Source: Bryobacteraceae bacterium (lineage in GTDB: Bacteria > Acidobacteriota > Terriglobia > Bryobacterales > Bryobacteraceae). Taken from it: a stretch of 5,542 nt of DNA. Within the stretch, counting starts at the first letter, position 1; every line of letters starts with the position of its first letter. A program made the position numbers and the translations under genes. The notes under the pieces were generated by a model. The model made no database searches, was not told the DNA's origin, and was given only the letters and a program-made list of their open reading frames with translations. The stretch is taken from assembly GCA_025350445.1 (NCBI GenBank), contig JANXXV010000559.1, positions 1 to 5,542 on the forward strand. The letters run 5' to 3'. Below, piece by piece: positions 798-4,024 of the stretch.

Positions 798-834
798 AAA
801 ACAAAACGACCCACTCGATCGAGCGGGTCGTTTT
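798..834 (-). terminator. Intrinsic terminator in the aroF leader (attenuator)
   Basis: On the minus-strand RNA, AAAACGACCCGCUC (834-821) pairs with GAGUGGGUCGUUUU (816-803) as a continuous 14-bp stem closed by a GAUC loop. The 3' arm runs directly into UUUUGUUUU (806-798). One pair (824 with 813) is G-U on this strand but would be A-C on the plus strand, so the structure is better for minus-strand transcription. It lies between the leader peptide stop and the aroF start, about 40 bases before the ATG, where a terminator would only make sense as an attenuator. Confidence 0.9.
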
Positions 835-866
835 GGGTTCCGAAAATACTTACACCAACGCCGCTC
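821..866 (-). promoter_or_regulatory. Candidate antiterminator of the aroF attenuator
   Basis: GAGCGG (866-861) can pair with CCGCUC (826-821), and after a two-base bulge CGUU (860-857) pairs with AACG (832-829); GG (856-855) may add pairs with CC (836-835). The 3' side is the 5' arm of the terminator, so the two structures exclude each other. A further UCGA (873-870) with UCGA (818-815) could extend it and would compete with the leader-codon hairpin. The pairing was found by eye, with no folding energy calculated. Confidence 0.6.
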
Positions 867-869
867 CGG

Positions 870-896
870 TCGATTTAGGTAAAATACCAAAATCGA
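870..896 (-). promoter_or_regulatory. Hairpin over the Phe-Trp-Tyr-Phe codons of the leader (pause or '1:2' hairpin)
   Basis: UCGAUUU (896-890) pairs perfectly with AAAUCGA (876-870). Inside it, after one U-U mismatch, GGUA (888-885) pairs with UACC (881-878) around a UUU loop. The stem is built from leader codons 11-17, so the aromatic codons and the stop codon lie inside it. A ribosome on these codons would melt it. This is the position of the 1:2 hairpin in trp-type attenuators. Confidence 0.75.
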
Positions 897-928
897 AGTG
901 TAAAAGAGCTGCGGTAGGCAGTAAGCAT
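875..928 (-). CDS. Aromatic-amino-acid leader peptide of the aroF attenuator, 17 residues
   Basis: Reads MLTAYRSSFTLRFWYFT and stop. Six of 17 residues are aromatic (Tyr5, Phe9, Phe13, Trp14, Tyr15, Phe16), with all three aromatic amino acids in the run 13-16 just before the stop codon. Its role would be to sense charged tRNA for Phe, Trp and Tyr: slow translation of these codons would change which downstream hairpin forms and let RNA polymerase pass the terminator at 798-834 into the DAHP synthase gene. The start ATG lies 8 bases beyond a strong extended -10 box, and there is no Shine-Dalgarno sequence, so translation may begin on a leaderless transcript. The same frame is open further upstream, but that part precedes the promoter and I do not include it. 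The case rests on composition, position and the flanking hairpins; it is not a homology call. Confidence 0.85.
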   Translation of the reverse strand: MLTAYRSSFTLRFWYFT

Positions 929-936
929 CAAACCGC

Positions 937-964
937 AGTATACCAGACAACGGCGCAAACGCAA
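937..964 (-). promoter_or_regulatory. Promoter of the aroF leader, extended -10 type
   Basis: On the minus strand TATACT (942-937) is preceded by TG plus one base, giving TGGTATACT, an extended -10 box. TTGCGT (964-959) is a fair -35 box at a 16-base spacing. The predicted transcript start falls at about 930-928, at or just before the A of the leader peptide ATG. No other good promoter is seen between here and the aroF start. Confidence 0.72.
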
Positions 965-2895: not shown

Positions 2896-3785
2896 CCACA
2901 TGGCTCGGGGCAATTGCGCTGGCCGGCGTTGCGTTCTCGCAGACCAGTGTATTCAAGGTCGACGTGCAATTGGTACGCGTGCTTGCCACCGTGAAGGACT
3001 TAAACGGCAGGCTGATCGCCAATCTGGATAAGCCGGATTTCCAAATCAACGATAACGGGGTGCCGCAGCAAATTGCCGTGTTTGAACATCACTCGGAAAC
3101 GCCGCTCTCGGTCGCGTTCATGGTGGATACCAGCGGCTCCACGGCGAAAGATCTGAAGTATGAAGTAAATTCTTCCGGCCGGTTTATGCGCTCGCTTTTT
3201 AGAGAGGGCAACACAGACGACCGCCTCTCGTTGTACAGCTTCAACTGGGAGGTGGTTGAGCAGCAGCGCTATACGCGCAACATGCCAAGCCTGGAAAAAG
3301 CGATGAAAAACTTCAAGGCGGAAGCGGGCACCTCGATGTACGATGCCATCCGCTTCGGCGCGCGGAGCCTGGAAGAACGGGATGGCCGGCATGTAATGGT
3401 GATGGTGACCGATGGCGGCGACACCGTCAGTTCCACCACGTACCCCCAGGCGCTGGCGGACCTGCACCGCGCCGATGCCGTATTCTACGCAATCCTAGTG
3501 ATGCCGATTACGAACGACGCCGGCCGGAACATCGGGGGCGAAAATGCGTTGACCACGCTGGCCGAATCTACCGGTGGGAAGGTCTTTGTTCCGGCTGTTG
3601 GTCCGGCTCTCGATGCCGCCTTCGACGATATTCTTCGGGAACTGCGGACGCAGTACCTGATTGGCTACTATCCCAAGAACATTCCGTTAACTAAGAATCG
3701 TTTTCACACCCTTCAAGTGAGCACCAGGCAAAAGAATTTGCGGGTGGTGACGCGGAATGGATATTATGGAGAGTCGATCCACTAA
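2868..3785 (+). CDS. Secreted von Willebrand factor A protein of the acidobacterial VWFA-related family, 305 residues
   Basis: Function unknown; probably a metal-dependent adhesion or protein-binding module outside the cytoplasm. The N-terminus has basic residues (Arg3, Arg5), a hydrophobic stretch at 9-23 and a likely signal peptidase site near SQ (24-25). A short beta-rich region with LVRVLATVKDLNGRL follows (about 36-50), as is typical of this family. The vWA domain then shows the full metal site (MIDAS): DTSGS at 87-91, Thr155 in AGTSMYDA and Asp182 in VTDGGD. The C-terminal part RTQYLIGYYP is also characteristic. The GTG at 2868 is preceded by GGAAGG and gives a clean signal peptide; a TTG at 2853 is also in frame but lengthens the N-terminus. 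The start lies 28 bases inside moaDE, which suggests translational coupling. The stop TAA shares one base with the ATG of the Hfq-like gene. There is no sortase or membrane anchor at the C-terminus. Confidence 0.9.
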   Translation: MGRFRNSPLATWLGAIALAGVAFSQTSVFKVDVQLVRVLATVKDLNGRLIANLDKPDFQINDNGVPQQIAVFEHHSETPLSVAFMVDTSGSTAKDLKYEVNSSGRFMRSLFREGNTDDRLSLYSFNWEVVEQQRYTRNMPSLEKAMKNFKAEAGTSMYDAIRFGARSLEERDGRHVMVMVTDGGDTVSSTTYPQALADLHRADAVFYAILVMPITNDAGRNIGGENALTTLAESTGGKVFVPAVGPALDAAFDDILRELRTQYLIGYYPKNIPLTKNRFHTLQVSTRQKNLRVVTRNGYYGESIH

Positions 3786-4024
3786 TGAGTTCCACTGGCG
3801 GTAAATCCAAAACACGTGCTCCGGAACAGACCTTCGAAGAGGTGAAGTATTTGAAGTACCTCGCCGACAATCTGATCCCGGTCCGGGTTCGTCTTAGCAA
3901 CGACGAAGAGATCGACGGCGTTGTCGAATTCTACGACGACAGCTTCATCCGGATTACGCGCAAAGACGCGCCTAATATGTTCCTGTTCAAACACGACATC
4001 AAGTATCTGTGGGAGATCCAGTAA
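3785..4024 (+). CDS. hfq: Hfq-like Sm-fold RNA-binding protein, 79 residues
   Basis: Probably an RNA chaperone forming a ring-shaped oligomer that binds small RNAs and mRNAs. An Hfq-like helix (about 18-29, EEVKYLKYLADN) is followed by the Sm1 region (31-58) with PVRVRLSNDEEIDGVVEFYD, matching the Hfq pattern of a strand, a turn, Gly45, and Tyr/Phe-Asp at 50-51. The Sm2 region contains FKHDIKYL (68-75), equivalent to YKHAIST of E. coli Hfq, keeping Lys69 and His70. It differs from proteobacterial Hfq: the N-terminal Q-x-x-F-L-N motif is replaced by EVKYLKYLADN, and the Sm2 end by DIKYL. About 16 residues precede the fold, rich in Ser, Thr and Lys, and there is almost no C-terminal tail. The ATG overlaps the vWA stop (TAATG), and GGAGAG lies 12 bases upstream. 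A bacterial Sm-like protein of other function is the alternative. Confidence 0.82.
   Translation: MSSTGGKSKTRAPEQTFEEVKYLKYLADNLIPVRVRLSNDEEIDGVVEFYDDSFIRITRKDAPNMFLFKHDIKYLWEIQ

Follow-up and report, generated by a model that had tools for sequence, protein, structure and literature searches.

How might a soil bacterium match the first step of aromatic amino acid synthesis to the supply of phenylalanine, tryptophan and tyrosine at the same time? The question is raised by one end of the window (the whole 5542-nt stretch of DNA analysed here), where the minus strand carries, in front of an aroF gene, what appears to be an RNA switch that would let the cell monitor the three amino acids together through the speed of a ribosome on a tiny peptide. 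The gene occupies positions 1-756, with its ATG at 756-754, and is truncated by the window end; profile matches above cut-off (PRK08673, 358.9 bits; TIGR01361, 284.8 bits) identify its product as a DAHP synthase of the Bacillus subtilis type. Re-reading the minus strand, we recovered every part named in the original prediction, which had been made from the letters of this DNA alone. The promoter (937-964) consists of a -35-like TTGCGT (964-959) and a TG-extended -10, TATACT (942-937). It is followed by a leader peptide ORF of 17 codons, MLTAYRSSFTLRFWYFT (875-928; codons from 928 to 875, ATG CTT ACT GCC TAC CGC AGC TCT TTT ACA CTT CGA TTT TGG TAT TTT ACC TAA), by a hairpin over the Arg-Phe-Trp-Tyr-Phe-Thr-stop codons (870-896) and by the 5' side of an antiterminator (strand 2, GAGCGGCGTTGG, 855-866), which pairs with 821-830. 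An intrinsic terminator (798-835; stem 835-821/816-802, U-rich tail 806-798) then lies between leader and gene, with the Shine-Dalgarno-like GGGGAAG of aroF at 762-768. Between the end of the -10 and the leader ATG there are 8 nt, a distance on which the original prediction had not remarked. The promoter was absent from the output of a consensus promoter scan because its -35 is weak; that scan returned one site elsewhere in the window vs 0.7 expected. We did not adopt the consensus promoter and terminator scan as a guide, since it picked up the terminator in part and the promoter not at all.

The same arrangement occurs in genome G188, whose AroF is 100% identical with that of the window over 252 residues and whose leader peptide and terminator are identical. 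G188 holds two AroF genes (L101 and L137), 100% and 81% identical with the window's, each with its own F/W/Y leader; the pair represents either paralogues or a mixed assembly.

Folding bore out the expectation of a structured leader region. RNA 930-757 had a free energy of -65.5 kcal/mol vs a shuffle mean of -44.91 kcal/mol (z -5.28), a value reached by 0/200 shuffles. In the MFE structure the terminator stem comprises 15 pairs, so that the GC-rich terminator with its U-run stands and the length of 14 bp first given to it does not. The segment GAGCGG-C-GTTG (866-856), part of the full form of strand 2 (GAGCGG-C-GTTGG, 866-855), is complementary to CGACCCGCTC (830-821). The latter, strand 3, is common to the antiterminator and the 5' arm of the terminator, and the two structures are mutually exclusive. 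In the window MFE, the antiterminator strand (867-859) is bound by leader codons 6-8 (strand 1, 913-905), a pairing that would form without a ribosome, and the Phe-Trp-Tyr-Phe hairpin (896-870), found in both the MFE and the centroid structure, is stacked atop this 913-905/867-859 helix. The competing strand is thus codons 6-8 (905-913) according to the MFE, and not the Phe-Trp-Tyr-Phe hairpin that the original prediction called the 1:2 hairpin and whose author, seeing no overlap between that hairpin and the antiterminator, had therefore favoured masking by the ribosome. Hairpins like 870-896 were present in relatives as judged by eye only. The window MFE also pairs 929-917 with 856-845, which in this model would hide the leader start.

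To place the element among relatives, we compared 101 aroF upstream regions, comprising the window, 11 loci from a genome scan, and 29 loci and 60 places from one order; the remaining 69 loci of the initial genome scan received a simple ORF scan only. Twelve named rows (the window, L001-L010 and L025) were retained after their upstream regions had been read and are therefore biased towards the element. The other 89 were picked by AroF rank, leaving out places close to the start of a contig and those already included, and represent the better-matching genes of the order and not a random draw. Under a fixed rule (an ORF of 10-45 codons with at least three F/W/Y, then an intrinsic terminator within 110 nt), a leader plus terminator was called in 80/101 upstream regions, and in 69/89 of the AroF-ranked rows, vs 10/505 dinucleotide shuffles; at a score of at least 15 the calls were 80/101 vs 1/505. 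We then read the 21 regions missed by the scan. L139 and L176 have a leader with a bulged terminator, and a covariance model (see below) matches both genomes; L117 is cut short by the end of a contig; in L010, aromatic codons and a terminator are present and a clear start is missing; and in L108 and L142 the terminator is kept and the aromatic leader absent. Neither leader nor terminator was found on reading the remaining 15/101 upstream regions. Relatives that keep aroF and lack both aromatic codons and terminator, which the original prediction had named as telling against it, thus exist in these 15 regions, alongside the larger number with the element. In the more distant acidobacterial aroF loci L011, L042, L054, L064 and L065, no element was seen by eye.

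Three of the 80 calls were removed: L101, which repeats the window, L173, where the wrong terminator had been picked, and L143, an exact duplicate. This left 77 leaders for analysis. The covariance model, built from 53 aligned leaders and giving rough E-values because of its short calibration, matched 182/257 genomes of the order at E <=0.01, and matched L173 despite the wrong terminator call. Across the phylum, it matched 26/297 genomes at E <=0.001; three of these belong to the order and had been seen there, and most of the other matches are weak. By eye, several matches outside the order are trpE or DAHP synthase leaders and others lack an aromatic leader. Genome G244 gave six weak matches, of which L228, L238 and L247 were viewed and none was convincing.

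The leader ORFs are short and rich in codons for the products of the pathway. Among the 76 unique leader peptides, Phe is present in 76, Tyr in 72, Trp in 68 and all three in 64, in keeping with the proposal that the peptide covers all three aromatics; the 12 incomplete peptides lack either Trp (eight) or Tyr (four). F, Y and W make up 18.3, 9.7 and 6.8% of the leader residues respectively, and the aromatic share of the AroF protein is 5.3% (41 rows). This content belongs to one frame: over the 77 leaders, aromatic codons account for 34.9% of frame 0, 9.2% of frame +1 and 6.8% of frame +2, and stops number none inside frame 0, one in +1 and 51 in +2. F, W and Y furthermore interchange at single codon places among leaders. 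Such patterns indicate selection on the leader as a peptide carrying aromatic codons.

Next, we examined covariation of the pairings in a structure alignment of 53/77 leaders; the 24 omitted were by eye more divergent or nearly repeated, and the alignment is therefore favoured to look clean. For the antiterminator (2:3), 95.7% of 583 cells were paired, dropping to 30.7-46.1% when the helix was slid by 1-3 columns; six of its 11 pairs showed changes on both sides, in 16 cells, and 0/500 shuffles reached 16 such cells. For the terminator (3:4), 99.0% of 477 cells were paired, with both-sided changes in four of nine pairs and 23 cells; the number of cells was matched by 0/500 shuffles and the number of pairs by 33/500. 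As examples, antiterminator pair 83-134 changes from UA to CG in five sequences, window included, and terminator pair 134-149 from AU to GC or GU, in three sequences each. The alignment therefore shows both helices changing in step, and comparison indicates that antiterminator and terminator co-vary through their common strand 3 (821-830 in the window).

The 1:2 helix behaved less clearly. It was paired in 82.9% of 467 cells, with six both-sided cells; sliding it by three columns left 58-60% paired, and sliding it by -2 gave 14 both-sided cells vs six for the helix itself, and its number of both-sided pairs was reached by 177/500 shuffles. At least four 1:2 pairs were present in a leader's own MFE fold in 65/76 cases, and RNAalifold on the 53-leader alignment predicted the terminator only, with no 1:2 helix. 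We also compared each leader's own strands with partners taken from other genomes (76 leaders; L188 was left out because its strand 1 is empty). Own partners were favoured for 2:3 (z -8.9), 3:4 (z -8.9) and 1:2 (z -5.7), each with 0/5000 permutations, and the control pairings gave z values of 0.3 (1:3), 1.0 (2:4) and -1.0 (1:4). The swap and shuffle tests ignore relatedness, which the null pairings share. Thus, of what had been expected from a comparison of aroF upstream regions, most relatives had the F/W/Y leader, terminator and antiterminator, and antiterminator and terminator showed compensating changes, whereas covariation of the 1:2 helix was weak.

We also measured the distances between codons and strand 2. 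In 64/76 leaders, 15-20 nt separate the start of the last aromatic codon from strand 2, most commonly 17 nt (28/76), which is also the distance of Phe-16 in the window. Per codon bin, aromatic codons make up 41-82% in bins 6-13, which lie about 18-39 nt upstream of strand 2; their share is 14% at bin 5 and <=4% nearer strand 2, with a further peak of 44% at bin 17. In 48/77 leaders the start of the stop codon is either 2 or 11 nt short of strand 2 (11 nt in the window); in 10/77 it lies past the start of strand 2. The front edge of a ribosome lies approximately 12-15 nt beyond its A site. With this footprint, which is general background and not a result of the comparison, the control-codon and stop-codon spacing fits an arrangement in which a ribosome stalled at the last aromatic codon would just free strand 2 and one at the stop codon would cover it. 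The spacing in 76 leaders thus fits the freeing and masking of 855-866 that had been proposed for the window.

The leader mRNA probably begins close to the peptide itself. In 65/77 leaders, the best -10-like hexamer (ties resolved towards 8 nt) has its end 8-11 nt upstream of the leader start, and hexamers with five or six matches to TATAAT were found in 58/77 vs 6.7 expected from shuffles. A match of at least 4/6 to AGGAGG was present at 5/77 leader starts and at 77/77 aroF starts. In Streptomyces lividans, an average of 6.3 nt from -10 to transcription start is given in PMC8079986. If approximately 6 nt is assumed here too, a -10 at 8-11 nt from the ATG would place the mRNA start at, or a few nucleotides from, the leader ATG, suggesting that the leader mRNAs are probably near-leaderless. 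Leaderless leader peptides are already described, as in PMC8079986 and PMC7298713.

Taken together, we put at roughly 0.9 the probability that the element is a ribosome-mediated transcription attenuator that controls the first enzyme of aromatic synthesis by sensing pooled charged tRNA-Phe, tRNA-Trp and tRNA-Tyr. Comparison among relatives establishes the peptide, its amino acid bias, the terminator, the antiterminator and their spacing; ribosome stalling, the part played by the 1:2 helix, a start close to leaderless and a response to each amino acid singly (OR-type) are inferred. Without a ribosome, codons 6-8 would pair with the sequence after the leader, the antiterminator strand would be occupied and the terminator would form. 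With all three amino acids ample, a ribosome at the stop codon would cover the antiterminator strand and the terminator would again form. With any one scarce, the ribosome would stall at the Phe/Trp/Tyr cluster, its front edge just short of strand 2, and the freed strand 2 would pair with the 5' arm of the terminator, so that transcription continues into aroF. We regard as fairly likely the wider proposal of a pan-aromatic sensor, in which the near-leaderless leader reports a shortage of any one of Phe, Trp and Tyr, forms the pathway's principal leader-type control in these acidobacteria and was probably lost more than once. The observation from which the analysis started holds, and its interpretation largely holds.

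An attenuator of the same kind could in effect read one amino acid, most likely Phe, with the Trp and Tyr codons carrying little weight. Phe is indeed the commonest aromatic residue and present in 76/76 unique peptides, and the Phe-Tyr-Phe leader of Corynebacterium glutamicum is described as responding to Phe and not to Tyr (PMC11802643). However, the zone 15-42 nt before strand 2 contains Trp in 66/76 leaders, Tyr in 61/76 and all three amino acids in 54/76, Trp reaches 6.8% of all leader residues, and at codon bin 8 it outnumbers every other residue (32/77); a Phe-only response therefore seems to us unlikely.

A protein- or metabolite-binding RNA switch, with the reading frame a by-product of the recurring hairpin, would explain why a hairpin recurs over the last codons (in the window MFE, and by eye in relatives). 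It would leave unexplained that aromatic content is specific to a frame free of stops in 77 leaders and that F, Y and W replace one another at the same codon place, and no Rfam family reached its gathering score in the window or in 20 related loci; we hold such a switch to be very improbable. Hardly credible is a constitutive terminator behind a chance short ORF, with no regulation at all, given the 80/101 vs 10/505 of the shuffle control, the covariation of the antiterminator and the spacing of codons to strand 2. We therefore retain the attenuator that reads the three aromatics together.

The mechanism is known, whereas the pooled reading of aromatics, the family and the host group appear new. 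To our knowledge, most attenuators of the leader type are tuned to the amino acid of a single branch, the Ile/Val/Leu leaders being the pooled exception. The leader of Escherichia coli ilvGMEDA gives a pooled reading of the branched-chain amino acids. Leaders of the ilv type resemble the present element in that a single leader reads several end products, and differ in reading Ile/Val/Leu instead of aromatics. Among them, S. lividans ilvL is described as a pooled leaderless Ile/Val/Leu leader (PMC8079986), and E. coli ilvGMEDA is named in PMC1183508. If our reading is true, the element would be a second pooled leader case, covering three aromatics at the common entry step in a large, mostly uncultured phylum. 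The 76 different natural leaders also form a data set on the permitted distance between control codons and antiterminator.

Rfam returned three weak matches in the window, Leu_leader (22.7 bits), GcvB (17.8 bits) and, at another place in it, M23 (19 bits), all rejected as below gathering. Leu_leader (RF00512) was the sole leader family scoring in the window and, at 22.7 vs a gathering score of 50 bits, the element is not a member. By description, the closest known system is the Corynebacterium aroR-aroF attenuator, reportedly described for C. glutamicum by Neshat in 2014. As in our case, a leader with aromatic codons precedes a DAHP synthase gene under ribosome-mediated attenuation; the published description, however, gives a Phe-Tyr-Phe leader responding to Phe, not Tyr, with no Trp mentioned, in another phylum (PMC11802643 and PMC4046766). 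The uORFC-13-1 motif before aroF is likewise a predicted uORF with Phe codons and an adjoining terminator upstream of DAHP synthase, but it comes from Acholeplasma and unassigned environmental sequences (24 representatives) and involves Phe only as described (PMC8632094). The same source mentions an earlier hypothesis of attenuation at E. coli aroF (Camakaris 1980; PMC8632094), and a Tyr attenuator is predicted for Shewanella aroF (PMC2659441). These two proposals share attenuation at a DAHP synthase gene with our element and differ, as summarized there, in Tyr-type control and in phylum. In Sinorhizobium meliloti trpLE(G), whose transcript begins at the leader ATG, leader peptide and terminator are alike, but the leader is described as reading Trp only, upstream of trpE (PMC7298713). 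Our search of largely open literature, some of it seen as extracts, for leader-peptide attenuation in acidobacteria or Solibacter and for DAHP synthase leaders found no such case; according to PMC2965389, almost no predicted acidobacterial attenuator had an associated function in 2010.

In an AroF tree of 41 rows, those without the element are interspersed among those having it. With L010 and L117 labelled as element present and L108 (terminator only) as absent, the labels require four changes, two of them forced by well-supported branches; 18/37 inner branches are poorly supported. Repeated loss of the element in relatives is thus probable from the tree. In eight of the 15 element-less upstream regions (L106, L114, L122, L128, L135, L149, L151 and L167), a -10-like element ends 6-7 nt before the aroF ATG, and aroF would therefore be near-leaderless in those loci. 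Several of these eight also have, by eye, an upstream ACACC...GGTGGT repeat, which might be a repressor site.

We then scanned other genes of the pathway, trpE and pheA in as many as 15 genomes from the order and a second DAHP synthase in six genomes. By the same scan, a leader plus terminator was found before 0/10 trpE, 0/14 pheA and 0/7 second DAHP synthase genes. For trpE, starts were uncertain in L268 and L278 and the upstream sequence was just 238 nt (L274) and 42 nt (L275); pheA and second DAHP synthase starts were set from match coordinates; and L269 and L279 (trpE), L293 and L295 (pheA, partial) and L097 (DAHP synthase) were omitted. Among the genes scanned, the common first step is the sole place where leader-type control was seen, and reading all three aromatics there is therefore sensible. 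An operon with aroF was also considered and set aside, as no aromatic gene was recognised by eye after aroF in seven loci.

Several side observations concern related genes. In L270-L274, L276 and L277, the anthranilate synthase match lies inside an open frame of approximately 700 residues with no visible attenuator, which may be a fused trpE(G). Trp-rich leaders with terminators, for instance SYWWWPS and YNYAWRWYSSTRW, precede trpE-like genes in genomes across the phylum (L252, L253, L257, L261 and L262; genes named by eye). Other aromatic leaders, such as NWFWWSWRF and SYRFWYWY, stand before DAHP-synthase-like genes, again named by eye, of more distant genomes (L251, L254, L255, L223, L227, L229, L230 and L231). 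In a Lentisphaerae and a Ruminococcaceae genome (L063 and L068), Phe/Tyr-rich leader ORFs without Trp, FNFTGFYFSYRSFAYGY and FAYAYYFYYYYF, precede DAHP synthase and are followed by terminator-like hairpins, as seen by eye.

Elsewhere in the window, the stretch 965-1700, between the aroF promoter and a thioesterase-like gene (1715-2116), holds short ORFs only in the mechanical list. On the plus strand, a 79-residue protein (3785-4024) has a sub-cutoff match to Hfq (20.5 vs 61.7 bits). A single ORF at 2185-2895, also on the plus strand, gives matches under the curated cut-offs, to MoaD over its first part and to MoaE over its second, and is likely to encode a MoaD-MoaE fusion of molybdopterin synthase.
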